IMG/VR virus record: IMGVR_UViG_3300035682_000123
Span: 1-32,410 of that record
Length of the DNA stretch: 32,410 nucleotides
Strand: one strand, 5' to 3'
DNA from: a virus
Shown here piece by piece: positions 5,660 to 32,281 of this stretch (within the stretch, counting starts at the first letter, position 1; each line of letters opens with the position of its first letter). Made by a program: the position numbers and the translations under genes. The notes below the pieces were generated by a model that saw only the letters and a list, made by a program, of their open reading frames with translations, was not told where the DNA came from and did no database searches.

Positions 5660-5680
5660 TATACAAGCCGGATGTGGGGA
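5660..5680 (-). promoter_or_regulatory. Late element, copy A
   Basis: Minus strand TTCCCCACA-TC-CGGC-TTGTATA followed at once by GAGGAGG, the ribosome site of the 410-aa virion gene. It overlaps the inverted repeat around the nozzle gene stop. This is the most divergent of the six copies at the ACT position. Confidence 0.5.
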
Positions 5681-5681
5681 A

Positions 5682-8129
5682 TTACTTGTCCCCGATACGC
5701 GGGGTGTTCCCCGATACCCAGAACGATGCCGTCTGCAGCTGCACATACCCTGTAAAGGTTACCGTTACAGAGCACATGGCTTGGGGACCTATGCCGGAGT
5801 TTACGATAAACTCCCCAAGGACACCCTTGTCTGAGTAGGTACGATTTAATGTTGTCAGATACTGTACATCCGGAAATGCTGCCGTTCCGGACACGTTCAA
5901 TGCGCCTGTAGACTGGACCCGTACAGTCCCTACAGTGCAAGATGTTGGTGTAGCAAAAGTCATGCCAAACTGGTGCCAGTTTGTGCGCCTATGGCTTGTG
6001 ATATCCCCAGCGGTTAAAGTGGATACGGTGATCGTAAGCGGAGTATTGTCATAGCAAGCCCGTTCTGAGTTAGGTCCAGCTGGAACCATTCGAACAACCT
6101 TGCCGCCCATGATAAAAAACAGCTGGTCTGTTCCACCCGTCATTGAAGATATCGCTGCCGGTATGTTTACTTCCGTCCAGCATCCGTCAGCTGTGCCGGC
6201 CTCTGCGCTACTAGTCATCAAGGTAAAACAGAGAAGCCTGGAGTCCCTGTACACAAACAGGCTTTGACCCAGGTGTGCCACATGGTCGCTATCTGTAGAT
6301 GACACAGGTTGTTTCGGACCAACACGATCCAGGCGGTCGCACACCTTTCCGTTTGTGTACCAAACACCGCCAAGTTTATCTACGAACACAACAACTCCAG
6401 CGTCAGACCACAATGTGGTTGCTGGCCGGTATCCAGTAGATGTGCGTTGCGCTGGGCCTACACCACCGCGAACAAGTTCGATTCGTGCAGCATCGCTATC
6501 GTTTTCGACAGTTGATGTATACGATATGAGGCGAGATAGATATCCGCTCAACCGGAACACTCCGTCTGATGTGGATCCGGCTGTGGTTACCACAACAACG
6601 GTATCACCAATAGTGTGCATGCCGACAATAGTCACATCGCTTTTGCCAAAAATGAGCACAGACCGTGGGTCAAAAATGTCGATGTCTGAGCTTGACGAGT
6701 AGTACATGCCGCTGCGATGCGGGCCAGTGTTTGTGTCATTAAGAAGAGCTCTAGCTGTGTTTACGTTAGATACCCACTTTATCTTTGTGCCAGGTGCGTC
6801 AGCCATAGCGTAAAACGCGTTAGGGAAGCTGTTTGGTAGCGCGTTATATTCAGCAAACAAGTACTTGTATTCGTATGCTATAGCTTTGCCGTATGGGGAT
6901 GCAACAGCTGTGCTAGACACCGTCTTGGCCAATGTGTATCTAAACGATGTTGATGTTGGGGCATCGTACACCGTAAACGTTCCGTTAAAGTTGTCGTCAA
7001 CGCTAGTAATCTGTACCTTGTCTCCAGCAGAATACCCGTGTGTGGCAGTGGTTGTAAGCGTAGCGTACGTTCCATCTGCAGCCTTATTGCTAATCAGAGA
7101 GTACATGTTGCTGTCATCTTTGAGATAAATGTTTCCAGGTCCCTCTACGTAAATTACGCGAGAAGTGTTCAACACGTTTGATGGCCAGTTTACAGCAGAT
7201 GACGCTATGTTGCTGAAGCTTGTGCCACCGCTAGAGTCAGCGATATACCCCTCAGATTCTGGATCTACCCGTGTAGCGTTAGTTGACTCCCATTCGATGT
7301 CTCCAAGAAGAAGAAGGTTTCCTTTAGACACACCAACGTTAGACCTTGGCATTATACCAACACCAGGAAGAACCGTCAAGTCAATATCAAGATACGTGTA
7401 AGGATGAAATGCGCGATACGGGGACGTTCCAGTGAGCCAAGTTGGGAACTCTTCGTATGTCGAACCAACCAAAGCTTTAATGTAATCTCCAGACACAGTG
7501 TTGTGCATCGGGGTTCGACGAAGGTTAGGGAACGTAACCACTTTAACAACAGCGTTAGTGGTATCAACATAAGCTACAAGAGCCTGCTGTGGTGCGGTGT
7601 CAGCAGAACCGTTAACAGTAGTACTGTGAATCAAGACAGCGGTAGCTTGCACCAGCTGACCAGCAACCGGTACGTCTTTAGACGAGTTATCGGCATCTCC
7701 GGCATCAGGTGTTCGGACATACTTGTAAACTTGGAACGGGACATTGCACACAAACTTGTAGTCGGTGTTGCTAAGCACAGAGATTGAGTTGCCGGCATAG
7801 TCTTTGTTCTGTGCGGTAGTGATACGCGTCCAGCTTGTTGCGCTAGATGTTGTGTGTGTTGCGGAGGTTGCGGCAGGCTTAGACCACCACACCTGTCCAG
7901 TAGAGTTGATAGCTACCAAGAACGTTCCGGTTGAAGCTTCCAAAGGATATACCGCAATAGCGTCAGTGAAAGCGGACCCAACAGTCTGCATAGGCCACTG
8001 TGATTCAAAGTTCATCTGGCTAGATGGGATGATACCTTTCAGCTGCGCCCATTGACGTTCAGTGAAGTCGTCAGGTACAGTAGACTCTTGAATACCGCCT
8101 GAGAAGTCGCTGATAGTAATTTTCTGCAT
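5682..8129 (-). CDS. Tail nozzle / tail tubular protein B-like (815 aa)
   Basis: This beta-rich 815-aa protein begins MQKITISDFSGGIQ, an opening similar to podovirus nozzle or stabilisation proteins, which often start with an N-x-F-x-G-G motif. Its length is close to the roughly 800 residues of T7 gp12. It follows a 220-aa connector gene by 12 bases, the same order as gp11-gp12. Around residues 355-410 it has an inserted beta module (ATHGYSAGDKVQITSV, then FNGTFTV and TSTSFRYTLA) related to one in the capsid protein of this phage. The stop codon lies in a GGGG/CCCC inverted repeat (5676-5693) that may end or process the transcript. Assignment is by length, order and N-terminal motif. Confidence 0.7.
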   Translation of the reverse strand: MQKITISDFSGGIQESTVPDDFTERQWAQLKGIIPSSQMNFESQWPMQTVGSAFTDAIAVYPLEASTGTFLVAINSTGQVWWSKPAATSATHTTSSATSWTRITTAQNKDYAGNSISVLSNTDYKFVCNVPFQVYKYVRTPDAGDADNSSKDVPVAGQLVQATAVLIHSTTVNGSADTAPQQALVAYVDTTNAVVKVVTFPNLRRTPMHNTVSGDYIKALVGSTYEEFPTWLTGTSPYRAFHPYTYLDIDLTVLPGVGIMPRSNVGVSKGNLLLLGDIEWESTNATRVDPESEGYIADSSGGTSFSNIASSAVNWPSNVLNTSRVIYVEGPGNIYLKDDSNMYSLISNKAADGTYATLTTTATHGYSAGDKVQITSVDDNFNGTFTVYDAPTSTSFRYTLAKTVSSTAVASPYGKAIAYEYKYLFAEYNALPNSFPNAFYAMADAPGTKIKWVSNVNTARALLNDTNTGPHRSGMYYSSSSDIDIFDPRSVLIFGKSDVTIVGMHTIGDTVVVVTTAGSTSDGVFRLSGYLSRLISYTSTVENDSDAARIELVRGGVGPAQRTSTGYRPATTLWSDAGVVVFVDKLGGVWYTNGKVCDRLDRVGPKQPVSSTDSDHVAHLGQSLFVYRDSRLLCFTLMTSSAEAGTADGCWTEVNIPAAISSMTGGTDQLFFIMGGKVVRMVPAGPNSERACYDNTPLTITVSTLTAGDITSHRRTNWHQFGMTFATPTSCTVGTVRVQSTGALNVSGTAAFPDVQYLTTLNRTYSDKGVLGEFIVNSGIGPQAMCSVTVTFTGYVQLQTASFWVSGNTPRIGDK

Positions 8130-8141
8130 AAGGGGACCTTA

Positions 8142-8804
8142 TCAGGCTGGGCGGAACCACGGGAAGTACTTCCGTGAGTCCACACCATCTTGCCCAATTT
8201 GAAATGTTCGGTAATCGTGATCCAACTCGTACAAAGAATACATGCCAGATGCAAGACTGTTGTACTCTGCGAAGAAGAACTCTGCCCTGTTGGTGTCATC
8301 TGCCAAGAAAGACAGAACTTTAACTGCAGCGCGATACGCTAGCATGACGTGGAACTGTGAATCGAAAGACGGAACATCTGTGCCAGTTGCCAAATCTACG
8401 TTAGTCCTGGTGTAGCGAATTTTTACGCTATATGTGTCCTCTTGCTCTGGAGCAAAACGAAACACACCAGCAAAATCTACATCGTACTTTACACCGGCGT
8501 CAGCAGGCTCAACATTGTCCAACTCTGGTGCTTGAACCATCTCCGTAACTGCGCCATTAGAATCAACCAGATACGCAGACAAAACACGCCTTGTACCGTT
8601 CGCAAGGTTGATGGTGTGAACCTCGTTGACTGCTGGTGGTACTGCTCCAGTATACGTGATCTCCAGCCAGTCCCAGTCCCGCTCGCGGGCAATCTCGTTA
8701 TATGCCTCGTTGACCCAAGTCTGGATAAGGGTATCGGATACTACGTCAGTGGAATACACACCAGTAAGATCGCGGACATGTTGTGTTAAAGCTGAACGGT
8801 TCAT
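8142..8804 (-). CDS. Head-to-tail connector / tail tubular protein A-like (220 aa)
   Basis: The 220-aa protein begins MNRSALTQHVRDLTG and continues with a helical segment (DTLIQTWVNEAYNEIARERDWDWLE) typical of podovirus gp4/gp11-type adaptor proteins, where an N-terminal helix pair contains a Trp-rich end. A C-terminal helical part follows (FDSQFHVMLAYRAAVKVLSFLADDTNRAEFFFAEY). The gene starts 109 bases after the capsid gene, preceded by GGAGGATAG. It is followed 12 bases later by the nozzle gene. The role, joining portal to nozzle, is inferred from family pattern and gene order. Confidence 0.65.
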   Translation of the reverse strand: MNRSALTQHVRDLTGVYSTDVVSDTLIQTWVNEAYNEIARERDWDWLEITYTGAVPPAVNEVHTINLANGTRRVLSAYLVDSNGAVTEMVQAPELDNVEPADAGVKYDVDFAGVFRFAPEQEDTYSVKIRYTRTNVDLATGTDVPSFDSQFHVMLAYRAAVKVLSFLADDTNRAEFFFAEYNSLASGMYSLYELDHDYRTFQIGQDGVDSRKYFPWFRPA

Positions 8805-8827
8805 CTATCCTCCATAAAGGTCTCACC

Positions 8828-8853
8828 TAAAGCCGACAGTGGGGAATGTCCCC
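8828..8853 (-). promoter_or_regulatory. Late element, copy B
   Basis: Minus strand TTCCCCACT-GT-CGGC-TTTA, preceded by GGGGA so that GGGGA/TCCCC (8841-8853) can pair. It lies between the capsid gene terminator hairpin and the connector gene start at 8804, which has GGAGGATAG. Confidence 0.55.
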
Positions 8854-8865
8854 ATATACGGGAAA

Positions 8866-8889
8866 GGCCCCCCACCGAAGTGGGGAGCC
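8866..8889 (-). terminator. Capsid gene terminator-like hairpin with UUCG loop
   Basis: GGCCCCCCAC at 8866-8875 and GTGGGGAGCC at 8880-8889 pair over 10 bp with one mismatch, giving a UUCG tetraloop in the leftward transcript. It lies 24-48 bases after the capsid stop. Only a short T run follows (TTTC), so termination may be partial or the hairpin may protect the 3' end. Confidence 0.65.
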
Positions 8890-8913
8890 CTAACCGTTTA
8901 CCTCTTACAGCAA

Positions 8914-10119
8914 TTAGCTGCGGATAAGAAGGCCGTTTGCACGACGCTCGACAGTCCCGAAAGTGAGGGACGATGCAAGCGGTACAACGGTATCCAAGGT
9001 GCCTTCGAGAGGCTGTGCAGGGAACGCCTTCATGAACTCACCGGCGCAGTATGCGAAACGCAAGCTGTCGGAGGTCAAGAAGTAAGCGCGGTCATTCTGC
9101 GCATCTGGATCGAGACGGACTTCCAAGTCGCCGAACTTCACCGAAGTGAAGCGGGTCTGAGCCTGGCCGCCTTGAAGCAGCTGGTATTGACCCTTAGAGA
9201 CGAGGAATGCCTCAAGCTCTTCGTAGACATCGAAGCCAACGATTGCGACGTCCGGACGCTTGCGCGAGTTCCGGTAGATGTCGTTCGTTACGGTGCGGAA
9301 TGCCTGGACGATGTCTTGTGAACTACCACCAGTCTTCGCGATGGTTTCGCGAGTTGACTGCCAGTATCCCTTCTTGGCTACCTTGCCACCAACATCAGAT
9401 GCAGTGGTTTCGGTAGAGGTGTCTGCGATTGCGTACGAAATCGTGGTCGATGTGACCGCGGTCAACCGTGCTGCTGATACGTTGTATGCAGCTGGAAGGT
9501 CGAACACTGTGATAACGTCACCAACTTCGAAGAACGAGCTAGCGGTAGCAACACCAACCGTTGCAACACCAGCAGCGCGAGCGCGAGTGGTGGTTGCCTT
9601 ACGGCTGTGGTTGATTCCACCCACGGTGATGCCTGCGGTGGTATCGGAAGCGATATCGCCAATCAGCATGTCGAGTGAGTAGAGTTCACCAGAAGCCCAA
9701 TCCGAAGCCGGCTTGTGCATTTCTGCAACGATGAAGTTTGCGTGGTCAGCCGAAGCAGCCTTGATGTACTCCTCAACCAAAGCCACGATTTGCTCAGGGC
9801 CAGAGTTTTGAAGAATGTCGCGGTGCTTGATGCGGAACGGGGTGATGATCGTGTTGGCCCATTCATACACTGCCGAGCCGAGAATGTCGGCGGAAACGGC
9901 GGTGCTGTGCGTGCCAGACGCATCAGTGTATCCGGTAGCTGACAAGTCAGCCGCACGAAGCGGAACGACGAGACCGCGACCGGTCATCGACTTAGCTGAC
10001 TTTTTGAAGATTTCGAGAACAGGGTGGTCCAAAAGGACGTTGTCAACGAGAGTCTTCTCATACTTCTGAAGAGTAGAAGTGAAGAGTTGTGTGAAATTGG
10101 TATCACCTAAAATTGCCAT
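8914..10119 (-). CDS. Major capsid protein (HK97-fold expected, 401 aa)
   Basis: The 401-aa product lies directly downstream of the scaffold gene. The start MAILGDTNFTQLF at 10119 has GGAGGTAAACATC in front. An upstream ATG at 10134 lacks a ribosome site, so I reject it. The sequence has an N-arm-like helix (TSTLQKYEKTLVDNVLLDHP), a likely P-domain with a long helix (GPEQIVALVEEYIKAASADHANF) and a C-terminal A-domain-like part (DIYRNSRKRPDVAIVG). Residues about 175-245 form a beta insertion (FFEVGDVITVFDLPAAYN, then TSTTISYAIAD) that may project on the capsid surface and resembles a module in the nozzle protein. A strong UUCG hairpin follows the gene, consistent with high, separately terminated expression. 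Confidence 0.85.
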   Translation of the reverse strand: MAILGDTNFTQLFTSTLQKYEKTLVDNVLLDHPVLEIFKKSAKSMTGRGLVVPLRAADLSATGYTDASGTHSTAVSADILGSAVYEWANTIITPFRIKHRDILQNSGPEQIVALVEEYIKAASADHANFIVAEMHKPASDWASGELYSLDMLIGDIASDTTAGITVGGINHSRKATTTRARAAGVATVGVATASSFFEVGDVITVFDLPAAYNVSAARLTAVTSTTISYAIADTSTETTASDVGGKVAKKGYWQSTRETIAKTGGSSQDIVQAFRTVTNDIYRNSRKRPDVAIVGFDVYEELEAFLVSKGQYQLLQGGQAQTRFTSVKFGDLEVRLDPDAQNDRAYFLTSDSLRFAYCAGEFMKAFPAQPLEGTLDTVVPLASSLTFGTVERRANGLLIRS

Positions 10120-10185
10120 GATGTTTACCTCCAAGGTTTGTTAGTTATGGCTTTCTTTACTGGTCCAACCCGAGGAGGTCAACGT

Positions 10186-11178
10186 TTAGCGTGGAAACGA
10201 TTGCTCGTCCATCACCGCACGAATAACTGCCTGCAGATCAGAGTTGTCTGTGATAGGTGTGGCACCAGAGGCACCTGCACCTGACCGCCCAACAACCGAA
10301 GCGGCCTTCTTTTGCTTGGCACGTTCAACAGTCTTGGTTGCTGCCGCCTTCTTCTTCTGACCTTCCTCGTACTTAAGAGCCTTGTAGGCCGCCTTAAGAT
10401 TCGTAAGCTCATTTTCGTAAGCGTAGCTTGCAAGACGTGTGCGGAACGCATCACGCTGTTTGGTATTCAATTGGATACCTTCGATCTCCAGAATGTCGTC
10501 AATTTGACTTTCGTACTCAGCCATGGCCTTATCGACCTCAGCTTCGTAAGCAATCTGTTCTGCTCGAGCGTTCTCCTCTTGTTCTACCTTTGAAACCTTG
10601 CGACGCAGACCATCAACTTCAGACTCTTTGCTCCACGCAGATTTGACCTCATTGGTGATCCCAAACATTTCCAAGAACTCCTGGTCAAGCAGGTTGGCCG
10701 CAGCCAACTCCTTAATCAAAAGCGCTACAGAATGTGTAGGGTTCTCCGTGTTAGACGCAAAGTGCGCCAACACTTGCACAGGATTTTCATCCCATGCTGA
10801 GTCGAGTTGCTGGAGTGTCTGAATCGTATCCGAGAATGCGATTGCAGATTCCTGAAACTCTTCCTTCTCTGCTGCAAGAGCTTGAGCCTTACGGGTGTAG
10901 TCCGCTTGGCGCTGGTATCCGGCGAGTGCTTCTTTGAGGGAGACCTCAACGATTTCACCATCAACCTTAACCTGGTATGTTTCAGCCAGGCTTGGATCAT
11001 CTTCCTCCACCTCTTCTTCAAGGACCTCTTCCTCAACTTCCTCATCGTCGAGACCTGAAATAAGGTCATCTACAGATGTGTCTGTTGGATCTGTTTCTGG
11101 CGCTTCCTGGTTGACCGTTTCCGGTTCCACTATCGCCATTGTCTCCTGAATGATGTCAGTGAGTGATTGATTTTCCAT
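10186..11178 (-). CDS. Capsid scaffold protein (330 aa)
   Basis: This is a highly charged, helical 330-aa protein with an acidic N-terminus (EEVEEEVLEEEVEEDDPSL, about residues 50-70), long Glu/Lys/Ala coiled coil in the middle (YTRKAQALAAEKEEFQESA) and a basic C-terminus (GQKKKAAATKTVERAKQKKA). This layout is that of phage scaffold proteins, where the basic tail binds the coat protein. It directly precedes the capsid gene. The ATG at 11178 (MENQSLTDII) has a strong GGAGGTAA site; the in-frame start at 11235 has none. Element C and its hairpin lie 90-120 bases upstream, so scaffold and capsid may form their own transcript. Confidence 0.85.
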   Translation of the reverse strand: MENQSLTDIIQETMAIVEPETVNQEAPETDPTDTSVDDLISGLDDEEVEEEVLEEEVEEDDPSLAETYQVKVDGEIVEVSLKEALAGYQRQADYTRKAQALAAEKEEFQESAIAFSDTIQTLQQLDSAWDENPVQVLAHFASNTENPTHSVALLIKELAAANLLDQEFLEMFGITNEVKSAWSKESEVDGLRRKVSKVEQEENARAEQIAYEAEVDKAMAEYESQIDDILEIEGIQLNTKQRDAFRTRLASYAYENELTNLKAAYKALKYEEGQKKKAAATKTVERAKQKKAASVVGRSGAGASGATPITDNSDLQAVIRAVMDEQSFPR

Positions 11179-11267
11179 GGTATTTACCTCCAGTATCGAG
11201 TGCACATAAACCGGTTGTCCCGTAGGATCCAGCATGGCGTATTCGGGTAAGGATTAGTTTATCCTCA

Positions 11268-11302
11268 TATATAGCCGTGAGTGGGGAGGTTTATCTCCCC
11301 AC
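11268..11302 (-). promoter_or_regulatory. Late element, copy C, with extended hairpin
   Basis: Minus strand CTCCCCAC-TCA-CGGC-TATATA with the extra inverted arm GTGGGGAG, forming a perfect 8-bp hairpin (plus strand 11281-11288 and 11295-11302). It starts 2 bases after the stop of the 196-aa gene and precedes the scaffold-capsid pair. It could end the upstream transcript, start the next one, or both. Confidence 0.6.
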
Positions 11303-11304
11303 CC

Positions 11305-11895: not shown

Positions 11896-11896
11896 A

Positions 11897-14109: not shown

Positions 14110-15889
14110 GGTAACCTCTTGGTGTCTGTAAAAGTTGAGAGCCCATTACTAGCGACTCATATGCCTGAAGTTGTGCCTCTTCTGCCTCTGCGATGCGTCT
14201 ATCCCGTTCCTCTCGGAAAGAAGATAGGGTTAACGTCGTTTTGGCTCCCCAAGAAACATCCTCAACTATAGCCTCGTCTGGGGAGGCATCACTGTATTCT
14301 TCGATCAAAACCCACAAACCTATAGCCAAAGACATGACCAAGTCGTCATGGCAGCCAACATCGGCAGCGTAACGGATATTCCCGTTCGCTGTCTCTTGGG
14401 CTACGAACTGGCCAAGCTCTACACGCAGCAATGGGTGTATACCGCGAAGCATCGTCTGATTGTCTTGAGTTACAAGGTATTTGCCTAAACGGTCGATAAC
14501 AGCACGACGGCGATCTACTGTCATCGGGAACGCAAACATCCGCGCGCCACGAGAACGTTTAGCGCCGGACGCCTGGTGCATGTAAGGGTTTGGGTACTCT
14601 AAATGCTTATGGAGCTCGTTGATAGGCAAAGAGCCTTGACCACCCTGGTCTTCCACCGCGAGCTTCGCCGCCCATTCCCGACCGCTGAAAAACCTGCCCA
14701 TCTTGTCTAGGGCTGCAGCAAACTCGGTAGGATGGGTTATATTGCTGTGATAGTAGCCGACAATTTCTGGCATACCGTCATCGTCCAAAGTCATGACGTG
14801 CGCTGTAGCGTAGTCTTTCCCAACGCCTTGCGAAGGGTCAGCGCCAATCACATAGAAGCCTTTAGGGTCAGGGTCCAATGTTGCTAAATGCAAAGGGCCA
14901 GCTGGGTCATGCTCAAACGACAAAGTTCGATCATCCACCCAAGACAAATCTCCCCTAAAAGGGTAAGCTGCATACGAACTTTCTGGGGGCAAACCTACGA
15001 AACGTGGTCGGCCTGACTCGCGGAAAGCTTCCTCTTCCTGTTCAGGGTACTCTTGATAAAACCTCCAAGGCTGGTCAGCGAACTCTCTGCGCTTCAAATC
15101 ATAGCGGGAACGACATGGGGTTTTGGTGCCGGTCTCACCGCCACACCAACCACAATGTGCACCGCAACGCATAAAGGGTGAAACCATCCAAGGCTTAAAG
15201 AACGGTACAAACTGAGACTCTGCTTTCTTTGCAGCACGGTAGGTCTTAGCGAACCGGTTGTAAGCACCACGGGCTGTGCTCACAATCATCATCGAGCCAC
15301 CAGCGTCCGTTGTCGGCAGCAAGGTGCGAAGCACATCTTCTTGCAAGCTGGCCGGCTCCACAAGGGCAGCCTCGTCCCACAGTACAAACGTTGCGGTTTC
15401 ACCAGCGAACACTCCGTTAGTTGCTGGGCTGGCTTTCAAACCTGACACCATGCCGTCCATAAACTCAAACGAGATACCGTTCGAAGAGTCATTTTTGATA
15501 CTCGGCCCACGGTCCTTCATCCAGGCCGGCAAAAACTGGTAAGCCAGTCGAGCCTGGGCCAGGTTCTTGTTCGAAGACTTTTGGGTTTCAGACACAATCA
15601 GGATCGTCGCACCAGGGCGAAACAAGGCAAGCCACAAAGAGTGCGCCATACCGAGGGTAGTGAAACCAATCTGACGGGCTTTCAAAGCTATAACAAACCG
15701 GTTGACTTTAGTCAGCTCCAAAAGTTCGTTCTGGTAATCGAACAGGTGAAACTTGGTACGGCCACGAGCGTCCTCCATAGATGGGATCCACACATAGTTG
15801 TTGATGAAGTAAGATTCGTCAGCTGCACAGCGGCGCCATTCCAACTCTATCCACATGCGGCTCAGCTCTTTCTCACGTTTGCTAGTCAT
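14102..15889 (-). CDS. terL: Terminase large subunit (595 aa)
   Basis: Packaging ATPase-nuclease. The start MTSKREKELSRMW at 15889 is chosen over the in-frame ATG at 16024, which would overlap all of the upstream small gene. Visible motifs: an adapted Walker A (ALKARQIGFTT, residues 68-78), Walker B (TFVLWDEAA, D172-E173), coupling motif (IVSTA, 202-206), and RNase H-like nuclease acids D351 (VIGADPSQ), E413 (KLAVEDQGG) and D515-D516 (CHDDLVMS). Between the two domains is a four-cysteine insert (C242, C246, C249, C259) that probably binds zinc. The gene overlaps portal by 8 bases and the upstream small gene by 8 bases. Confidence 0.95.
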   Translation of the reverse strand: MTSKREKELSRMWIELEWRRCAADESYFINNYVWIPSMEDARGRTKFHLFDYQNELLELTKVNRFVIALKARQIGFTTLGMAHSLWLALFRPGATILIVSETQKSSNKNLAQARLAYQFLPAWMKDRGPSIKNDSSNGISFEFMDGMVSGLKASPATNGVFAGETATFVLWDEAALVEPASLQEDVLRTLLPTTDAGGSMMIVSTARGAYNRFAKTYRAAKKAESQFVPFFKPWMVSPFMRCGAHCGWCGGETGTKTPCRSRYDLKRREFADQPWRFYQEYPEQEEEAFRESGRPRFVGLPPESSYAAYPFRGDLSWVDDRTLSFEHDPAGPLHLATLDPDPKGFYVIGADPSQGVGKDYATAHVMTLDDDGMPEIVGYYHSNITHPTEFAAALDKMGRFFSGREWAAKLAVEDQGGQGSLPINELHKHLEYPNPYMHQASGAKRSRGARMFAFPMTVDRRRAVIDRLGKYLVTQDNQTMLRGIHPLLRVELGQFVAQETANGNIRYAADVGCHDDLVMSLAIGLWVLIEEYSDASPDEAIVEDVSWGAKTTLTLSSFREERDRRIAEAEEAQLQAYESLVMGSQLLQTPRGYRG

Positions 15890-16719: not shown

Positions 16720-16784
16720 ATCGGCCCACCAGGGGCCGATCAGACTAACCGGATAACCGGCAACTGTATCGGCCTTAGGGCCGA
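16720..16784. repeat. Two related hairpins (TCGGCC...GGCCGA) in terS leader
   Basis: Hairpin 1 is ATCGGCCC at 16720-16727 and GGGCCGAT at 16733-16740 with a 5-base loop. Hairpin 2 is TCGGCC at 16769-16774 and GGCCGA at 16779-16784 with a 4-base loop. They share the same stem core. They would lie in the 5' untranslated RNA of the leftward late transcript or act as DNA sites for the small terminase. Confidence 0.6.
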
Positions 16785-16823
16785 CCAGGTTACCGGAGCA
16801 CCGGTGCACCGGTGTACCGGTGT
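16748..16823. repeat. Tandem octamer array ACCGGNNN
   Basis: Two units (ACCGGATA, ACCGGCAA) lie at 16748-16763 and four consecutive units (ACCGGAGC, ACCGGTGC, ACCGGTGT, ACCGGTGT) at 16792-16823. Further 8-bp-spaced ACCGGCA units lie at 17296-17310. The exact 8-bp period with a conserved ACCGG core is iteron-like. Function unknown: terminase binding, origin or operator are all possible. Confidence 0.6.
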
Positions 16824-16840
16824 CCTGACCCCTGTGTTTA

Positions 16841-16875
16841 TATATAGCCGCTAGTGGGGAGGTTTATCTCCCCAC
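16841..16875 (-). promoter_or_regulatory. Late element, copy D, with extended hairpin
   Basis: On the minus strand this reads CTCCCCAC-TAG-CGGC-TATATA. It is preceded by an inverted arm GTGGGGAG, giving a perfect 8-bp stem with a 6-base loop (plus strand 16854-16861 and 16868-16875). It is nearly identical over about 36 bases to copy C (11268-11302). It points leftward toward the terminase operon, about 240 bases upstream of terS. Confidence 0.6.
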
Positions 16876-21777: not shown

Positions 21778-21789
21778 ACTTTACAGACA

Positions 21790-21823
21790 GAGGGGCCCCA
21801 CATTGTGGGGTCTCTTCTTCTTT
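21790..21823 (+). terminator. Rho-independent terminator of small-gene operon
   Basis: A 12-bp stem with three G-U pairs: 5' arm 21790-21801 (contains GGGGCCCCAC), loop ATT, 3' arm 21805-21816 (GTGGGGTCTC), followed by TTCTTCTTT. It lies 13 bases after the stop of the 94-aa gene. Confidence 0.85.
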
Positions 21824-22179: not shown

Positions 22180-22779
22180 ATGATAGATAGAGTATTGAGA
22201 AAGAACCAGCAGGTGCCGTACGATTCGGATTCGCCTGTTGTGAAAGAGCTGCGTCGTCTCGGGTACATTGATCTGCACTCGTTGTCTGACGAGTTCGATG
22301 GTGATGTGACTCGCACGTCTCGTGCACGTTTGCGGTACCTGGCCGCGTTGCTGCCGGAGCTTGACCGTCGCCGTCTCGCAGAGACGTTGACTGCGATTGT
22401 CGGCAACCCTGCTCTCTTGGAGCGGGATGTTCGGGCTATCTTGGATGGCCGGTCTCTTGGGGACACGTCCCGCACTACGCGTGAGGTTCCTATCGAGGCG
22501 GTGCAAACGGTGGGCCGTATGTTGGCTCGCGGTGAGACGCATGTGGAGACTGCACGGTCAGCTCGTGTGAGTGTGAACACTGTGGAAGCTATCGACGGTT
22601 TCTTGGGCCTTACACAGGCCTATCAGGACCGTCTAATGGATGCCGCTGTGATCGCTGTGCGTGAGAACTGGTCGGTGCGTCAGCTTGCACGCGAGGTTGG
22701 TATCTCAAAAAGCCAGGCGCACCGTCTGATGGTTCAGGCGCGGGATGTGTTGTCAGAAATCGGGGAGGTGTCACAATGA
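22180..22779 (+). CDS. HTH regulator with two helix-turn-helix segments (199-200 aa)
   Basis: First gene after the 22.1-kb promoter. Two ATGs (22177, 22180) follow GGAGG; the second has better spacing (5 bases). The C-terminal half has two homeodomain-like HTH segments: about residues 110-140 (LARGETHVETARSARVSVNT) and 155-199 (AVRENWSVRQLAREVGISKS). The second is about 50% identical over 46 residues to the N-terminus of the 404-aa virion-like protein (29500-30714). The N-terminal half is helical and charged. A transcription regulator of this operon or of late genes is likely; target unknown. It overlaps the next gene by ATGA. Confidence 0.7.
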   Translation: MIDRVLRKNQQVPYDSDSPVVKELRRLGYIDLHSLSDEFDGDVTRTSRARLRYLAALLPELDRRRLAETLTAIVGNPALLERDVRAILDGRSLGDTSRTTREVPIEAVQTVGRMLARGETHVETARSARVSVNTVEAIDGFLGLTQAYQDRLMDAAVIAVRENWSVRQLAREVGISKSQAHRLMVQARDVLSEIGEVSQ

Positions 22780-25050: not shown

Positions 25051-25052
25051 CC

Positions 25053-26490: not shown

Positions 26491-26786
26491 TGATGTACCA
26501 TGCCTGCGACGAATGCAAAACTGGACCTTTCTGCGATTGTGGAAAGTTCAAGACAGACTCTTTGTACAAGTATACGTCCGACGAGTCGTATGCAAACTAC
26601 ATCAAACGCCAGACCGAGGACTGGTTAGTACTCAACACCGATGGCCTCGACTACATCGCGCGGTTAAACACCGCAATCAAAAACACTACGGAGGTAGACA
26701 CATGTTCGGAAGATATCATGAGCTTCAAGGAATGGATCGCTATGGGGAAAACAGTCTTGCTGGCGACCTTGCGGAAGAGAAAGTAA
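26490..26786 (+). CDS. Small Cys-rich protein (98 aa)
   Basis: The ATG at 26490 overlaps the ATPase stop (TAATG). The N-terminus has a metal-binding-like cluster (CDECKTGPFCDCGKFK). The last 28 codons overlap the next gene in another frame, an unusually long overlap (85 bases), so the C-terminus may be unconstrained. No family recognised. Confidence 0.55.
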   Translation: MMYHACDECKTGPFCDCGKFKTDSLYKYTSDESYANYIKRQTEDWLVLNTDGLDYIARLNTAIKNTTEVDTCSEDIMSFKEWIAMGKTVLLATLRKRK

Positions 26787-27238
26787 CACAGGTTCTCGAG
26801 CAGCTGGACAGGCCGGTCGCGCCCTTTGGGCCGCGCCGTGTCAGTACCAAACGTGCACAGCACACCACTTGGACTAAAGAGATCCGCCATGCACCAGACT
26901 TTTTAGGATGGGGCAGGTTTATCGAGGTGCAGGGAAGCGACGGTGATACCGTTATCTTCAAACAAGACAAGACCGAAGCACTAACCTGGTGGGATACAAT
27001 CATGCCGGTGTTCTTCGGTATTTACTTGCAACGTCAAGACCAGGTTCTGTTCTGCGACATCGAGACTGTTATGTGGGCCATCTCACAGCCTGGCGTGGAA
27101 GAGATTACTCTCGACGCTGAAGGCCGATACCCTAAGACAGCTTGGATCGTGCCGATCCCAGTCCTGCTTGACCGGATGACCACGGATGCTTTTGCTGGAA
27201 GCAAAGGCGCCAAAGGTAAGAAGAAGAAAGAGGTGTAA
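26702..27238 (+). CDS. Possible PD-(D/E)XK-type nuclease (178 aa)
   Basis: The start MFGRYHELQGMDRYG at 26702 is fixed by ACGGAGGTAGACAC; in-frame codons upstream are shadow of other genes. The core HAPDFLGWGRFIEVQGSDG with a following FKQDK fits a PD-x(n)-E-x-Q/K nuclease motif, with Q in place of the usual Lys. A C-terminal Lys-rich tail (GSKGAKGKKKKEV) could bind DNA. Similar small phage proteins are junction resolvases or restriction-like nucleases. The Q substitution is seen in some active families but may also mean loss of activity. Confidence 0.55.
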   Translation: MFGRYHELQGMDRYGENSLAGDLAEEKVTQVLEQLDRPVAPFGPRRVSTKRAQHTTWTKEIRHAPDFLGWGRFIEVQGSDGDTVIFKQDKTEALTWWDTIMPVFFGIYLQRQDQVLFCDIETVMWAISQPGVEEITLDAEGRYPKTAWIVPIPVLLDRMTTDAFAGSKGAKGKKKKEV

Positions 27239-27241
27239 ACC

Positions 27242-27460
27242 ATGGCCAAATACGACTACGAGTGCAAGCTATGCCAAATTGGCACAGAGGTTGAGCGCTC
27301 AATACACGAAGAAGAGCAAGCTATACATTGCCCAGAATGCAAAGACCTGATGAAGCGCGTCTATGGTCCTGTAGGGGTGGTGATGAAAGGTGCTGGATTT
27401 TACAAGACAGACACAGCCCCATCTAACAACTTCTATTCAGAGAACGGGAGTACACTCTAA
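27242..27460 (+). CDS. FmdB-type zinc ribbon protein (72 aa)
   Basis: MAKYDYECKLCQIGTEVE, 72 aa, with a CxxC pair at each end of a ribbon (CKLC; HCPECKDLMKRVYGP) and the family's typical end GAGFYKTD. This is the FmdB/putative regulatory zinc-ribbon pattern (YxYxCxxC...SI.E....CPxC...M.RVY.P.GV...G.GFY.TD). Its biochemical role is not settled. It overlaps the next gene by TAATG. Confidence 0.85.
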   Translation: MAKYDYECKLCQIGTEVERSIHEEEQAIHCPECKDLMKRVYGPVGVVMKGAGFYKTDTAPSNNFYSENGSTL

Positions 27461-27906
27461 TGGCCAACATGCAGACCGGCGGGTCTAAGAAGAACTGGAG
27501 TTTTGACCCATCTTCAGTTGAGGCAATAGCCCCAATTCGTGATGCTTTAGTTCACAACGACACATACTTTGATGAGCCTTCAGCTGGAATCAGCACACTC
27601 TCTATTGTGCTTGACAAGATCTTGGAAGAGCTCCCTGAGGAGCTTCAAGCTCCTGTTCGCCTAGTGCACCTAGAAGGCCGGTCATATCGGTCTGCTTCCA
27701 AAACTTTGGGCATTGACCACAAGACGGTGAAAGCCAGAGTTGATCGCGGTGTAGCTATCATGAAAGCTAGGCTTATTGATTCGGTGTGGATAGCGGAGAT
27801 GCTTCGTGGATACATTCCACGCGACGAGATTTTGAACGAATCTTCGGTGCAAGGCAGCAAAGTGTCAGACATTCTTAGCACACTGAAAGGTTCAAATGCC
27901 AAGTAG
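27460..27906 (+). CDS. Sigma-70 region 4-like DNA-binding protein (148 aa)
   Basis: Residues about 48-103 (ILEELPEELQAPVRLVHLEG then SYRSASKTLGIDHKTVKARV and a closing helix) match sigma-70 region 4: an LP-E helix, the HTH and a recognition helix. There is no region 2 (-10 recognition) in the 47-residue N-terminus, and the C-terminal 45 residues are a tail. It may redirect host RNA polymerase through its -35 contact, act as an anti-sigma-like decoy, or bind DNA alone. It is coupled to its neighbours by TAATG and an 11-base overlap. Confidence 0.75.
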   Translation: MANMQTGGSKKNWSFDPSSVEAIAPIRDALVHNDTYFDEPSAGISTLSIVLDKILEELPEELQAPVRLVHLEGRSYRSASKTLGIDHKTVKARVDRGVAIMKARLIDSVWIAEMLRGYIPRDEILNESSVQGSKVSDILSTLKGSNAK

Positions 27907-28285
27907 TGTAGAGGAGCGTTTCTTGAAACACGTGAAGAAAACTGACACCTGTTGGAACTGGATAGGGGGAACCTCTGGCTCCAAGAAGTACGGAAAGTTT
28001 CAGTTCGATGGGCATAAGGTTTCTGCACACCGAATGTCTATGTACCTGTGGGAAGACTTTGATTTGGCTGACAGCCAGTCAATCCATCACACCTGCAGCA
28101 ACACCCTGTGTGTAAACCCTGAACACCTGCGCACAGTAACTACACTTGACAACATGATCGAGATGATGGAACGCAGACACTATGTAGCAACTATCGCGCG
28201 GTTGACCGCCGAGGTGAAACGACTAAACAAGGAGGTAGCATGTCTAAAGCGAAACAGCAAGGCACCAGCCACGAATCGTGGATAG
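27896..28285 (+). CDS. HNH endonuclease (129 aa)
   Basis: The 129-aa protein has the HNH_3 pattern: CWNWIGGTSGSKKYGKF, AHRMSMYLWE, IHHTCSNTLCVNPEHL, with the catalytic His pair and the N and H of CVNPEHL. The C-terminal 40 residues are a coiled-coil-like helix (TAEVKRLNKEVACLKR). Phage HNH genes of this size are homing endonucleases or nickases. It is embedded without gaps (11-base overlap before, 46-base overlap after), so it looks integrated into the operon rather than a fresh insertion. Confidence 0.88.
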   Translation: MPSSVEERFLKHVKKTDTCWNWIGGTSGSKKYGKFQFDGHKVSAHRMSMYLWEDFDLADSQSIHHTCSNTLCVNPEHLRTVTTLDNMIEMMERRHYVATIARLTAEVKRLNKEVACLKRNSKAPATNRG

Positions 28286-28647
28286 CTAACGAGCTCAAAG
28301 GCCACAGTATAGATGCACGACGTCTAGCTGAAGGCGGTGCTGACGATGAAGGTGATGTGGAAGCTTACCTGATAGGTGAGCGTTGGATCTTGGAAGGCAA
28401 ATCCCGTCAGGTCCTGAACGTACAGGCTACCCTGGGCAAGGCGCGCCGCAAGGCGGCAGGTTTACCGGTAGCTGTGGTGTGGAAACGCCTCGTGAAAGTT
28501 GCCGACAAGAAAGTACGCCAGCCTGTTGAAGGCGAACGTGTGGTAGTTATCCTTGGATGGGATGACTTTGTGCATATCATTACACACAACATGAGCACCG
28601 ATGACCAGGTGAAACCAGACGATACAGGAGGTATCAACCATGATTAG
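28240..28647 (+). CDS. Holliday-junction-resolvase-like PD-(D/E)XK nuclease (135 aa)
   Basis: The ATG at 28240 (MSKAKQQGTSHESWIANEL) has a perfect AAGGAGG site inside the HNH gene. The motif order E13 (SHESWIANEL), D of DDEGDVEAYL, and E-x-K (ILEGKSR) is that of archaeal Hjc-like and phage resolvases. The C-terminus ends DDTGGINHD, nearly the same as the end of the Cas4-like protein, because both genes end in the same repeated ribosome-site cassette. The likely role is processing of recombination intermediates before packaging. Confidence 0.72.
   Translation: MSKAKQQGTSHESWIANELKGHSIDARRLAEGGADDEGDVEAYLIGERWILEGKSRQVLNVQATLGKARRKAAGLPVAVVWKRLVKVADKKVRQPVEGERVVVILGWDDFVHIITHNMSTDDQVKPDDTGGINHD
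28619..28643 (+). repeat. 25-bp repeated translation-start cassette, copy 2
   Basis: Exact copy of 24223-24247, at the end of the resolvase-like gene and the start of the 128-aa gene. Confidence 0.8.
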
Positions 28648-29026
28648 CCAGGAAGCATTTGACGTAGTTGTAAACAAGATTGTGAACGATCAACCACTCA
28701 CAACAGCTGAAGCTGTAGAGCTCGTGCAAACCATTGCCGAACTTGACGGTAAAGGTAAAGTTGCGGAAGGGATAGTGCAGTTTGTGCTACACGGCATAGA
28801 GATCATGTACAATGACGTTGCTCAGAACGTTGTACGGGAACTGAATCTGCGTGATACCAGCAAGAAGAAACGGATTATGCGCATAGGCACCGAGGCCGCT
28901 GGAAAGCTTATTGAGGCCGTACAAGTGTACACCGCGCAGCTGTACATTCAAGAGGAGCAGGAAGCTCAACGGTTAGCAGCTGCTAATGTTAGCGAAAAAC
29001 TCCCCGAAGGTGAGACGCCGGCATGA
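28640..29026 (+). CDS. Hypothetical helical protein, last rightward gene (128 aa)
   Basis: MISQEAFDVVVNKIVNDQ, 128 aa, all-helical with Glu/Ala/Gln-rich C-terminus (QEEQEAQRLAAANVSEKL). Its start lies in the repeated 25-bp cassette. The 3' end overlaps the convergent leftward gene by 54 bases and I see no terminator between them, so antisense transcription is likely here. Family not recognised. Confidence 0.65.
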   Translation: MISQEAFDVVVNKIVNDQPLTTAEAVELVQTIAELDGKGKVAEGIVQFVLHGIEIMYNDVAQNVVRELNLRDTSKKKRIMRIGTEAAGKLIEAVQVYTAQLYIQEEQEAQRLAAANVSEKLPEGETPA

Positions 29027-29299
29027 CCAGTCGGTCTCGGCAACCACTGACGATCCGGATACTGAGTAGCGGACCCCTTCTGTACCCAGATCGGAAACAA
29101 CCAAAGCTACGGACTCGTCTAGAGGAACATCGTTCAGGTAGCTGTAAGCTTGCGCCTGTGTCGCGATAGTCTGCAAGTTTGTGTCAGAGACAGCGGCAGC
29201 TGCTGCAGGTGCAATAGCGTTGATTACAGTGTCAGCTTGTGTGGCAAGGCCTACGGTAGCTGTAGCGGAAAGGATAAGAGTGACGGTAGCTTTGATCAT
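28973..29299 (-). CDS. Small exported protein with N-terminal hydrophobic helix, pilin-like pattern (108 aa)
   Basis: The ATG at 29299 gives MIKATVTLILSATATVGLAT, a signal peptide or N-terminal membrane helix, then Ala-rich helix (NAIAPAAAAAVSDTNLQTIA) and a beta part (GVRYSVSGSSVVAETDW) with one Cys near the end. The pattern N-terminal helix, Q-A-Y helix, V-S-G-S strand is reminiscent of type IV pilin-like proteins, though there is no clear prepilin cleavage motif. A GTG two codons earlier is possible. The ribosome site is weak and lies in a CCCAC/GTGGG hairpin. It overlaps the end of the convergent 128-aa gene. Confidence 0.5.
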   Translation of the reverse strand: MIKATVTLILSATATVGLATQADTVINAIAPAAAAAVSDTNLQTIATQAQAYSYLNDVPLDESVALVVSDLGTEGVRYSVSGSSVVAETDWSCRRLTFGEFFANISSC

Positions 29300-29300
29300 A

Positions 29301-29314
29301 CCCACAACTGTGGG
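29301..29314. repeat. Small hairpin CCCAC-AACT-GTGGG
   Basis: Perfect short inverted repeat between the 57-aa and 108-aa genes. On the leftward mRNA it would cover the start region of the 108-aa gene. There is no T tract, so I do not call it a terminator. Confidence 0.4.
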
Positions 29315-29323
29315 CGGTGTCAG

Positions 29324-29497
29324 CTACTTGCCAAGTTTAGAAGCTATCTCTGTGAACTTGCCGCGCTTCTTCTTCTTTTTCGCATAGTCTGGCATGCTTT
29401 TATAAGCCGACTTTGGGGTCTCTTTGGCGAAACGTTCTGCTACCTTTGGATTGGTAGCGTACAGGTATCCTTGTTGTGCTTTAGACTTGAATGGCAT
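29324..29497 (-). CDS. Small conserved basic phage protein MPFKSKAQQ family (57 aa)
   Basis: The 57-aa ORF starts MPFKSKAQQGYLYATNPKVA and ends in a Lys-rich stretch (YAKKKKKRGKF) to a TAG at 29324-29326. Small proteins with a MPFKS.AQ..YL.A..P..A opening are common in phages and bacteria, with no settled function. It starts 2 bases after the stop of the 404-aa gene, with TTACCAGGTAGTT upstream. Probably co-expressed with the late genes. Confidence 0.7.
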   Translation of the reverse strand: MPFKSKAQQGYLYATNPKVAERFAKETPKSAYKSMPDYAKKKKKRGKFTEIASKLGK

Positions 29498-29499
29498 AA

Positions 29500-30714
29500 C
29501 TACCTGGTAAGACCGTAGATGCTAGCTAGGTAATCTGTCATTGTTGGAGCTCCATATTGCTGCGTCTGAATAGCTTGAAGAAGATCTTGTTGAGTGTATG
29601 ACCCTGGAACTCCAGTAGCCCCACCTTGAGCTTCACGGGCACGATCCTGCATTATAGTCCGTGCTTCCCCAACAGAGAAAGCAGGTAGACCGGCCTGTGC
29701 GGCAGCAACGTTACCGAAGTAAACGTTCTGGCCAATTTCACCAGCACGGAACGCTTTGAGTCCTGCAGATCCACCCTTGGTTAGCATACCAGCTTCGTTT
29801 GCAAAACCTGGAACCCGAGCCAATCCTTTAGCTGCCACCGATCCGGTTTTGGCTAGTTGAGTGCCGGCTTTAGCACCCTTCAAGATAGCGCCAGCAGGAA
29901 TCAGCGTTGAACCAAGTTCAAACGCACCAACACCAAGAGACGCTGCCGCCTTGAACCAGTTGCCCTCCTTGGCTGCTTTGTATGCTCTAGTAAAGTCGTC
30001 GACACCAAGGAGCTCGTTCGCTACCAGGTTGACACCGAACTCCCCAAACTTTTTTGCTGTAGCAACAGGGTCAATGGCGTTAGTTGTAGGGTCCTTCTCA
30101 CCAAAGGCAGCTATGAGTCCGACAGCGCCAGCGGCAAGAGCCGCCTTTCCTTTCAACGTCTTAGGTTTGAGTATCTTGCCAGCCCTGCTAACAGTCCTCG
30201 GTCCCACCTGTGCTCTAAGCTCGGATCCGAGGGCACCACGGATACCACGAGCGGCAGGGGCGGCCTCAGAGCCTGGAAGTGTAGAGATAACATCTTCAAG
30301 ACCAAGCATGTATCTTCCAGAACCGATATCGGCAGCAGCCCCTGCAGCAGCCCTAGGGGCAGGGATGTTCAAATCTTGGAACGGGTATGTTGGCGTCATC
30401 CTAGGTATACCGCCACCTGCGGTGCCACCAAGGTTGATAGGGCCAGTAGGAACCAGTGCACCAGGAGCCCTGTACGGTACCGGAAGATTACGTGGGGTGG
30501 ATGCAGGCAGCTCGATAGTTGACCCTAAAGTTGGGGTTGGGAGTTCATCGATTTCAAGCAGAATGCTTTTAGCTTGGTTTATGAGACGTGCAGCTTTAGC
30601 GTTGCTTATCCCACGGAGGTCGGCAAGCTGTTGAGTGCTGAGACCTTCACGGACAGCGATGATCGCGTCGTCAAGCTCATTGCTCTGCATAGGGTAGATG
30701 TCTTCAATGGCCAT
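29500..30714 (-). CDS. HTH domain fused to Ala/Gly-rich virion-like protein (404 aa)
   Basis: Residues 11-57 (NELDDAIIAVREGLSTQQLA, then GISNAKAARLINQAKS and LLEIDEL) form a homeodomain-like HTH, 50% identical over 46 residues to the C-terminal HTH of the regulator at 22180. Residues about 65-150 are a Pro/Gly-rich linker. The rest is Ala/Gly/Lys-rich with hydrophobic helices (GKAALAAGAVGLIAAFG, AFELGSTLIPAGAILKGA), like membrane-active ejection proteins. The ATG has GGAGGACTAATT, and element E is just upstream. A virion protein that carries a DNA-binding domain into the cell is one reading; a fusion artefact of recombination is another. Confidence 0.65.
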   Translation of the reverse strand: MAIEDIYPMQSNELDDAIIAVREGLSTQQLADLRGISNAKAARLINQAKSILLEIDELPTPTLGSTIELPASTPRNLPVPYRAPGALVPTGPINLGGTAGGGIPRMTPTYPFQDLNIPAPRAAAGAAADIGSGRYMLGLEDVISTLPGSEAAPAARGIRGALGSELRAQVGPRTVSRAGKILKPKTLKGKAALAAGAVGLIAAFGEKDPTTNAIDPVATAKKFGEFGVNLVANELLGVDDFTRAYKAAKEGNWFKAAASLGVGAFELGSTLIPAGAILKGAKAGTQLAKTGSVAAKGLARVPGFANEAGMLTKGGSAGLKAFRAGEIGQNVYFGNVAAAQAGLPAFSVGEARTIMQDRAREAQGGATGVPGSYTQQDLLQAIQTQQYGAPTMTDYLASIYGLTR

Positions 30715-30728
30715 AATTAGTCCTCCAG

Positions 30729-30747
30729 TATATGCCGCGAGTGGGGA
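30729..30747 (-). promoter_or_regulatory. Late element, copy E
   Basis: Minus strand ATCCCCACT-CG-CGGC-ATATA, placed between the stop of the 134-aa gene and the GGAGG of the 404-aa gene. There is no extended 8-bp hairpin here. Confidence 0.55.
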
Positions 30748-31152
30748 TTACCCGCGCATCCTGCCCACAGCTTCCCTGCGAGCTTGCTTAGCTTTATCTG
30801 TATTTGACACAAACTGCCTGCCTTTCTTAGACCCTTCAACCTTTTTGCGGTTAGTAGCAGCCTTCTCTGAAGGGGACAACTTGGCCCATGCCGCAGACGG
30901 AAGATACCGGCTGGTACCGCCCTCACGGATAGCTGGTTTCTTGTCGCTAGTCCGCCAGTCTTCTTTAGTCCAACGGGACAGTTTGGTTTGTGCCTCAGTT
31001 TTCTCTCCACTGTACCCGCCACCAGCTTTTTCGTACCGTTGGGCAACCAGTTGAGCTTTACGAGCAGACCACTGGCCTGGCTTTCCGCCCTGGCTGCCAG
31101 CCATAACGCTATCTTTGATGCGTTCACGAAGCTTAGGTTTAGTGTATGCCAT
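30748..31152 (-). CDS. DUF5872-like basic protein (134 aa)
   Basis: A 134-aa Lys/Arg-rich protein: LRERIKDSVMAGSQGGKPGQ, WSARKAQLVAQRYEKAGGGY, WTKEDWRT, RYLPSAAWAKLSPSEKAATN, ending GRQFVSNT. I recall this pattern as DUF5872, a family found in bacteria, phages and large viruses with unknown role. The charge suggests nucleic-acid binding. It starts 1 base after the stop of the 96-aa gene and is followed by element E. Confidence 0.7.
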   Translation of the reverse strand: MAYTKPKLRERIKDSVMAGSQGGKPGQWSARKAQLVAQRYEKAGGGYSGEKTEAQTKLSRWTKEDWRTSDKKPAIREGGTSRYLPSAAWAKLSPSEKAATNRKKVEGSKKGRQFVSNTDKAKQARREAVGRMRG

Positions 31153-31153
31153 G

Positions 31154-31444
31154 TTACCACTTTTCCCGATCTGCCCAGTAGGCCGCAGACATCTTGCCTT
31201 TAGCTATGTTTCCAGCATGTCTAGCCTTGAACGCCTCACGGCGCTTCCTGTATGACTCAGACTCACCGGCTTTCCTAGGGCTTCCAGATACACCCTGCTG
31301 CCCGAACCGGATAGTTTTCAGCTGGCTGCCTTCTTGGGCTACCACAATGTGAGACTTGGTTGGATGGCCAGGTGTGCGTTTAGGCTTGTTCACACCGGCT
31401 ACACCAGCCATGCGCAAGATCGCCTGTTTACGTGCCGGCGTCAT
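31154..31444 (-). CDS. Small basic FGQQGV-family phage protein (96 aa)
   Basis: The 96-aa product has KSHIVVAQEGSQLKTIRFGQ, then QGVSGSPRKAGESESYRKRR and HAGNIAKGKMSAAYWADREKW. This is a recurrent small phage and bacterial family that I know only as uncharacterised; it often lies near DUF5872-like genes. The start overlaps the stop of the peptidase gene (ATGA at 31444). High basic content suggests binding to DNA, RNA or the virion interior. Confidence 0.7.
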   Translation of the reverse strand: MTPARKQAILRMAGVAGVNKPKRTPGHPTKSHIVVAQEGSQLKTIRFGQQGVSGSPRKAGESESYRKRREAFKARHAGNIAKGKMSAAYWADREKW

Positions 31445-31980
31445 TTTGATTTTACCGACTTCTTCTCAGCTATCCGTGTACGAGTCCAGTCATACCAGTC
31501 AGCCCATTCAGCTAAACGCTGCGGCCAAATATGCTCCGGCTTGTACGGCAATGTCGGGCGGACAGCGCGACGCATCTCCACCAGGGACACCGCCACATGG
31601 TTCGAGCAGATCATCCTGTCCGTGTTATCCTGCCAGCCGTTCACTTTGATACCCACCAGGTTCAAAGCGATACGAGCAATTTCACCCCAACCATACTTGC
31701 GTCCCACACAAGCTTCAGATGCAGCAAGGATACGCTTCTGCTCCAACACGTTCTTCCAAGGGCGGTAAATCTTGTTTACTGAACGGGTACGGATCCGGAA
31801 CTTCACACCGGTAGGGCCGGCCTCCACGGTACGCCAAGTGTCCTCGTCAATCTTTTCATGATAAACGAACACATGCCCATAGGCTCCTGTGGCGCGACGA
31901 ATCAACCACCCTGACCAGCCTATGCCGCCATCGAAACCGATGTCGCCAGGCTCGATACCGATCCAAGGCATGTTGCTCAT
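31441..31980 (-). CDS. Permuted NlpC/P60 (YiiX-like) peptidase, possible endolysin (179 aa)
   Basis: The N-terminal motif EPGDIGFDGGIGWSGWLIRR followed by GAYGHVFVYHE supplies the catalytic His. The C-terminal part has ICSNHVAVSL with the catalytic Cys. This order (His first, Cys later) is that of permuted papain-like NlpC/P60 proteins of the YiiX/YebB group. Substrates in the family are peptidoglycan peptides or lipoprotein amides. In a phage late region a cell-wall role (lysis or entry) is the simplest reading. No signal peptide is seen. A start three codons in (MPWIG) is also possible. Confidence 0.7.
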   Translation of the reverse strand: MSNMPWIGIEPGDIGFDGGIGWSGWLIRRATGAYGHVFVYHEKIDEDTWRTVEAGPTGVKFRIRTRSVNKIYRPWKNVLEQKRILAASEACVGRKYGWGEIARIALNLVGIKVNGWQDNTDRMICSNHVAVSLVEMRRAVRPTLPYKPEHIWPQRLAEWADWYDWTRTRIAEKKSVKSK

Positions 31981-31985
31981 GTGTA

Positions 31986-32246
31986 CTAGCCTACAGTTGT
32001 AAAGCGAAGCTCTCCACCGCCAGCGCTAGAGATAACCCAAAGGTCATCCCAAGCTGCATCTTCCAAAGTATTTGGAAACTCGTAAGCAGTACCTGCCGCC
32101 AACGGGATACCGTTAGCTGAAGTAACACCGCTAGTGTTACCAATATACAAGATTGTTGCGCCAGTGTTGAGCAAAAGGGGACGGTCTGCCGATCCCAATG
32201 CCACCTGCTGTGCAGCTGTGCTTACCGTGATTTTGTTGTTTACCAT
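31986..32246 (-). CDS. Small beta-rich structural protein (86 aa)
   Basis: MVNNKITVSTAAQQVALG, 86 aa, with alternating hydrophobic strands and the pattern LLLNTGATILYIGNTSGVTS, ANGIPLAAGTAYEF. Similar short proteins (NTG..xYIG.....T..NG.PL.AG) are frequent near phage structural genes and probably form a small beta sandwich, possibly a decoration or fibre-associated protein. Start by GGAGGTATATGAC; element F is upstream. Confidence 0.7.
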   Translation of the reverse strand: MVNNKITVSTAAQQVALGSADRPLLLNTGATILYIGNTSGVTSANGIPLAAGTAYEFPNTLEDAAWDDLWVISSAGGGELRFTTVG

Positions 32247-32263
32247 GTCATATACCTCCTATG

Positions 32264-32281
32264 TATAGCCCCAAGTGGGGA
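32264..32281 (-). promoter_or_regulatory. Late element, copy F
   Basis: Minus strand ATCCCCACT-TG-GGGC-TATA, immediately after the stop codon of the partial gene at the right edge and followed by the GGAGG of the 86-aa gene. CCCCACTTGGGG also makes a small hairpin. Confidence 0.55.

Follow-up and report, generated by a model that had tools for sequence, protein, structure and literature searches.

What is the function of a short sequence that recurs, always in leftward orientation, among the late genes of an uncultured phage? We addressed this question for a 32,410-base stretch of viral DNA (the window), a phage fragment in which terminase, portal, scaffold, head and tail genes run leftward and the rightward genes encode an exonuclease, an AAA helicase and RusA. 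An earlier note on this DNA had described six copies of the element and offered three options for its role: a late promoter with a TATA-like block beside the start, a binding site for a late regulator, or an RNA element controlling translation. As set out below, sequence comparison indicates that this element very probably serves as late promoter in an uncultured phage family with genomes of about 40 kb.

A repeated element in the late region

All six copies were located where they had been described, on the minus strand of the window (Table 1). TCCCCAC is present in 6/6 and CGGC in 5/6 (GGGC in the copy at 32261-32281), three of the six adjoin the GGAGG of the next gene, and the rightward operons are without any copy; on each of these points the original description was borne out. 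The pattern TCCCCACNNNSGGCW had six matches in the window and none in 100 dinucleotide shuffles. One more TCCCCAC, at 8886, was rejected as a further copy, as it forms part of the terminator-like hairpin that closely precedes the 8845 copy. The claim that all copies lie in gaps between late genes is correct for these six but not quite right overall, because a seventh, weaker copy is found inside the terminase gene.

Table 1 Predicted promoters, leader elements and candidate regulators in the window (PWM, position weight matrix)
Feature	Position	Strand	PWM score	Remarks
Late promoter copy (predicted)	5660..5680	-	24.6	GAGGAGG adjoins; predicted +1 = 5659; upstream of 410-aa gene 4411-5643
Late promoter copy (predicted)	8825..8845	-	29.1	Terminator-like hairpin before copy, ~8886; between major head protein gene and tail protein gene 8142-8804
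Conserved 88-nt scaffold mRNA leader	11179..11266	-		Hairpin, CGAAYA, GGGACAA, ACTCG, Shine-Dalgarno
5'-terminal stem-loop of scaffold mRNA (predicted)	11249..11266	-		GAGGAU-AAACUA-AUCCUU pairing; begins at predicted +1; same offset in 32/32 phages
Late promoter copy (predicted)	11267..11287	-	36.2	Scaffold and capsid genes downstream; predicted +1 = 11266
Inverted GTGGGGA arm	11296-11302			Upstream of 11267..11287 copy
Seventh promoter copy (predicted)	14264..14284	-	18.9	Inside 3' end of terminase large subunit gene, upstream of portal
Late promoter copy (predicted)	16840..16860	-	34.0	Head of packaging genes; predicted transcript has AAAC at 5' end
Inverted GTGGGGA arm	16869-16875			Upstream of 16840..16860 copy
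199-aa protein, two helix-turn-helix domains, conserved	22180..22779	+		Alternative or partner regulator
Sigma-70 region-4 protein, 148 aa, candidate late factor	27460..27906	+		PF08281; rightward replication operon
Late promoter copy (predicted)	30727..30747	-	26.3	GGAGG begins exactly at predicted +1, 30726
Late promoter copy (predicted)	32261..32281	-	26.4	AGGAGG begins exactly at predicted +1, 32260

Conservation and divergence of the element across relatives

Relatives gathered via their capsid and terminase proteins carry the same element, and the gene order and proteins of the window match those of one of them, the 41,074-base G008. No close named relative was found, named phages being related only distantly, through terminase (about 25%) and capsid; by eye, the motif is absent from the late gaps of distant named phages. 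The late gaps of one distant phage, MW202803, contain a repeated element of their own before genes, in which a TATAG-like sequence comes after CCGTTTCTGACGGAAACGG. A host search through the terminase in 84,980 species-level prokaryote genomes returned no relative, and a literature search found nothing on this motif.

A matrix was built from 62 distinct sites, the seed pattern fixing TCCCCAC and GGC by construction and leaving free the T after CGGC, the AT block, T20 and RARG. The refined element reads TCCCCAC-N3-CGGCT-WWTAD-T|RARG, with TCCCCAC referred to here as box 1 and CGGCT as box 2. The core of the conserved unit is as originally claimed, but the unit is longer, as T20 and RARG at positions 21-24 are also kept across relatives. 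In ~620 kb of family contigs (~40 contigs), 125 sites scored at least 14 bits, against 0.4 expected in third-order Markov sequence; some of the scanned records overlap, and 114-115 of these sites are distinct. Every one of the 125 lies on the late-gene strand, and individual genomes carry, for example, seven (the window) or nine (G008). This matrix scan had been set beforehand as a check, with further copies expected in late gaps only: the restriction to the late strand emerged as anticipated, while the terminase copy lies in coding DNA. Among 2.9 million viral contigs, the core also occurred in unrelated contigs, where each match stood alone and lacked the AT-rich block; only contigs of this phage family had several good sites each. 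The pattern TCCCCACNNNCGGCTWWTANTGAGG, with 0 matches, was too strict for searching. Of the three options, a short late promoter with a TATA-like block beside the start fits best, and a regulator binding site is compatible with it as part of the promoter.

An inverted repeat is present in 41/115 sites, mostly at scaffold and terminase promoters. Box 1 recurs in inverted form (GGGGA) at a distance of 4-9 nt upstream of 19/20 scaffold promoters and of 14/21 promoters of the terminase small subunit, and rarely elsewhere (window 11281-11302 and 16854-16875); this inverted copy may act as a terminator, as an insulator or as a site for a dimer. The stretch that immediately follows the first packaging promoter (window about 16770-16839, minus strand) contains repeated ACCGGT-type units, which are perhaps part of a packaging site.

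More distant groups retain the end of the element and differ in its boxes. In group B, whose terminase is about 50% identical, the element reads RCCCCA-N10-ATAGT|GAGAG (seeds chosen by eye), has the same 21-nt length and lacks box 2. In G024 and G025, boxes of the TGTCG type lie 21-23 nt ahead of GAGG (few sites, by eye). Since the T|GAGR end is common to all groups despite their different boxes, this comparison suggests that the reader of box 1 is specified by the phage and has diverged between groups.

Selection on the copy inside the terminase gene

The copy at 14264-14284 encodes a Ser-Pro pair. Across terminase sequences of at least 60% identity, the serine codon is TCC in 31/31 and the proline codon CCA in 31/31, set against a background of 15% TCC among Ser codons and 27% CCA among Pro codons; all other invariant Ser/Pro columns use three to six codons. 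In group B, the equivalent codons are GCC CCA. The invariance of both codons implies that selection acts here on the nucleotides themselves, and, judging from these alignments, not on spacing to genes.

Predicted transcription start and the scaffold leader

Several features converge on where transcription would begin. Positions 15-20 of the element are AT-rich in the 62-site matrix, T occupies position 20 in 54/62 seed sites and a purine follows at position 21 in 62/62, with no purine bias at positions 26-27. Start codons follow the element at anything from about 10 nt to >100 nt. In 22 tight sites the Shine-Dalgarno sequence begins at offset 0 and the start codon comes 10-14 nt later, so that transcripts initiated further down would lack this Shine-Dalgarno sequence. 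In 32/32 phages of all groups, 5-10 base pairs form a stem that begins 0-3 nt after the T of the scaffold promoter; these pairs vary freely, with several pair types per position and compensatory changes. For 24-nt windows at scaffold promoters, the mean folding energy is -9.8 kcal/mol at offset 0 compared with about -1 a few bases on; the other promoters of the family are without such a hairpin (mean -2.4). In the same test, phi10, the capsid-gene promoter of T7, gave the same profile, with -13.4 at +1. Taken together, three indirect signs, the purine at 21, the Shine-Dalgarno offset and the scaffold hairpin, favour position 21, the purine directly after the T (T|GAGG or T|AAAG), as the transcription start, which we regard as probable.

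The scaffold leader (about 90-120 nt in the window and 31 relatives) is also conserved past the hairpin, with CGAACAAG, GGGACAA and CACTCG preceding the Shine-Dalgarno sequence. Rfam gave no match for this leader, which is a possible new structured RNA or translational operator.

Candidate regulators

The protein encoded at 27460-27906 matches PF08281 (Sigma70_r4; E=9.6e-9, 35.2 bits vs a cut-off of 25.7). PF08281 matches were found in 8/8 members, where the protein has 148-172 aa and lies beside replication genes in all eight genomes with the region sequenced; its PDB matches are ECF sigma factors. G024 instead encodes, at L118 3566-4294, a SigA-like 242-aa protein with regions 2, 3 and 4, region 2 (PF04542) scoring E=2e-6, below the curated cut-off. 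With the exception of G024, PF04542 was absent from the window and the relatives searched, and a profile search for further sigma-like proteins returned only four contigs, already known. The recognition helix of region 4 reads DHKTVKAR or close to it in the five members of the TCCCCAC group; the RCCCCA group has DHKMV(S/K)RR, and G025 has SDQTVRRE. The helix thus appears to track box 1 across eight proteins, too few for a test. Matches to sigma-70-like promoters are enriched in the early region (6 vs 1.5+-1.2 in shuffles) and not in the late region (6 vs 10.0+-3.0).

The conserved 199-aa protein (22180-22779) gave a structure model with weak, non-significant matches only, the best of them to sigma factors. 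An N-terminal helix-turn-helix segment like that of this protein was also noted in a late-gene protein (29500-30714, minus strand), fused there to a different C-terminal part. On present comparisons, we put the chance that the sigma-like region-4 protein reads the element at about even, and favour host polymerase with a phage sigma-like factor as the reader.

A model for late transcription and its alternatives

In the model that we consider probable, the element is a late promoter with its start at the purine after the T, and its specificity comes from an early phage protein, likely the region-4 protein, working with host polymerase. The 21-bp element would comprise box 1, 3 bp, box 2 and an AT-rich stretch with T at its end, and transcription would begin at the purine right after this T (consensus T|GAGG or T|AAAG). 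Copies spread along the leftward late region would give packaging, portal, scaffold/capsid, tail and internal virion genes a start of their own, and the 27460-27906 protein is the likely source of the specificity lent to host RNA polymerase.

A start at 21 places box 1 at -21 to -15 and the AT block at -6 to -1, a layout that is T7-like and unlike that of a sigma holoenzyme at -35/-10; the consensus of 62 sites contains no -35/-10 hexamer pair at 16-18 bp. If a sigma-like factor and host polymerase read the element, then either this geometry is unusual or the start lies ~6 nt further down (~27), at the cost of Shine-Dalgarno sequences and hairpin arms. To our knowledge, no bacterial holoenzyme has such a promoter geometry. 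We propose only tentatively that these are T7-style late promoters read by a host polymerase reprogrammed through a small region-4-only protein. Box 2 or TGGGGA as an ECF-type -10/-35 element was rejected, TGGGGA being present in only 41/115 sites and box 2 missing from group B.

An alternative reading is an ordinary sigma-type promoter, with ATAnT as the -10 element, GAGG as the discriminator, a start at ~27 and box 1 as an activator site in the spacer. A sigma-like factor in every genome with the region sequenced would suit such an arrangement, as would group B, where A at 16 (72/76 sites) and T at 20 (67/76) supply the two key -10 bases (A at -11, T at -7). The bases of group A do not resemble a -10 element, T being preferred over A at 16 (33 vs 22), and positions 26-27 are without the purine preference of a start; moving the start to 27 also costs 22 sites their Shine-Dalgarno sequence and 32/32 hairpins their 5' arm. 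We judge an ordinary sigma-type promoter of this kind unlikely.

Somewhat less likely still is a reader of the kind known from T7 and N4, a single-subunit RNA polymerase of phage type that is either too divergent to recognise or supplied from elsewhere. The T7-like layout, with duplex boxes, an AT-rich melting zone at +1 and a purine start run, is what such an enzyme would use, and the 5'-terminal hairpin on the scaffold/capsid mRNA recalls T7 phi10. Six-frame searches of the phage family with PF00940, phrog_414, phrog_2166 and phrog_2051 nevertheless gave nothing convincing, whereas in phage N4, the positive control, phrog_414 detected every N4 polymerase, even the divergent virion enzyme. 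The early region of the 41-kb G008, syntenic with the window, has no spare large unexplained ORF. Among the large proteins that are universal in the family, F7 (window 1-3147), a virion protein of 1300-1660 aa, is alone in having no known fold. F7 was rejected as a virion RNA polymerase, lacking conserved polymerase motifs and any PDB match, with one weak PF00940 match in a relative (8.3 bits). Its model, of low confidence, has long coiled coils and no polymerase matches, and on this basis F7 looks like a coiled-coil internal virion protein.

An RNA element in read-through transcripts, acting as a processing site or in translational control in place of a promoter, would explain why the coding strand carries all copies, why some overlap Shine-Dalgarno sequences and why the scaffold leader is structured. 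It accords poorly with the spread of start codon distances (about 10 nt to >100 nt), with the copy inside terminase and with the AT-rich block beside a YR step, typical of a melting start site, and we consider it improbable. A translation signal at gene starts, like the SAS of cluster K, to which the adjoining GGAGG of some copies might point, can be set aside almost entirely, as the SAS sequence is absent and the spacing to start codons varies.

Comparison with known systems

As a probable phage late promoter, the element has a sequence of its own and an unusual combination of parts. In working layout, its nearest counterparts are the class III promoters of T7 (Autographiviridae), such as phi10, which are likewise short, on one strand and present in many late-region copies. 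Both are AT-rich up to +1 (as inferred here), have a purine start and a tight leader and, in the case of phi10, place a 5'-terminal stem-loop on a head-gene mRNA. Their sequences are unrelated, however, and the element has two GC-rich boxes; membership of the T7 type fails because no T7/N4-type RNA polymerase gene was found. The N4 virion RNA polymerase uses hairpin promoters, whereas an inverted repeat accompanies the element at only 41/115 sites, and no N4-type polymerase was found here.

T4 (gp55/gp33) and SPO1 encode sigma factors or late activators that act with host RNA polymerase. The family resembles them in combining an early sigma-like protein with a late regulon, and differs in that most members have region 4 only and in a promoter geometry other than -35/-10. 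A separate region-4 protein also forms one half of the split sigma factor SigO-RsoA of Bacillus subtilis (PMC8103513), although in most members here no region-2 partner was detected.

The element had also been likened to the SAS/ESAS of cluster K mycobacteriophages, in which SAS is located at the ribosome-binding site (PMC3203893). The general logic of this analogy stands, as both occur as many same-orientation copies upstream of genes, some after inverted repeats. The particulars do not: GGGATAGGAGCCC, the SAS sequence, had 0 matches with up to 2 mismatches, the element is not tied to the ribosome-binding site, its distance from start codons varies and one copy lies within coding sequence.

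Implications for the phage family

These data provide a complete predicted late regulon (7 sites in the fragment, 9 in the 41-kb relative), together with a candidate regulator, for a phage family without a cultured member found here. The promoter could help to assign family membership in metagenomes, and it may serve as an expression tool. If transcription does start at 21 and host polymerase does the work, the family would have taken an unusual route to promoter recognition.
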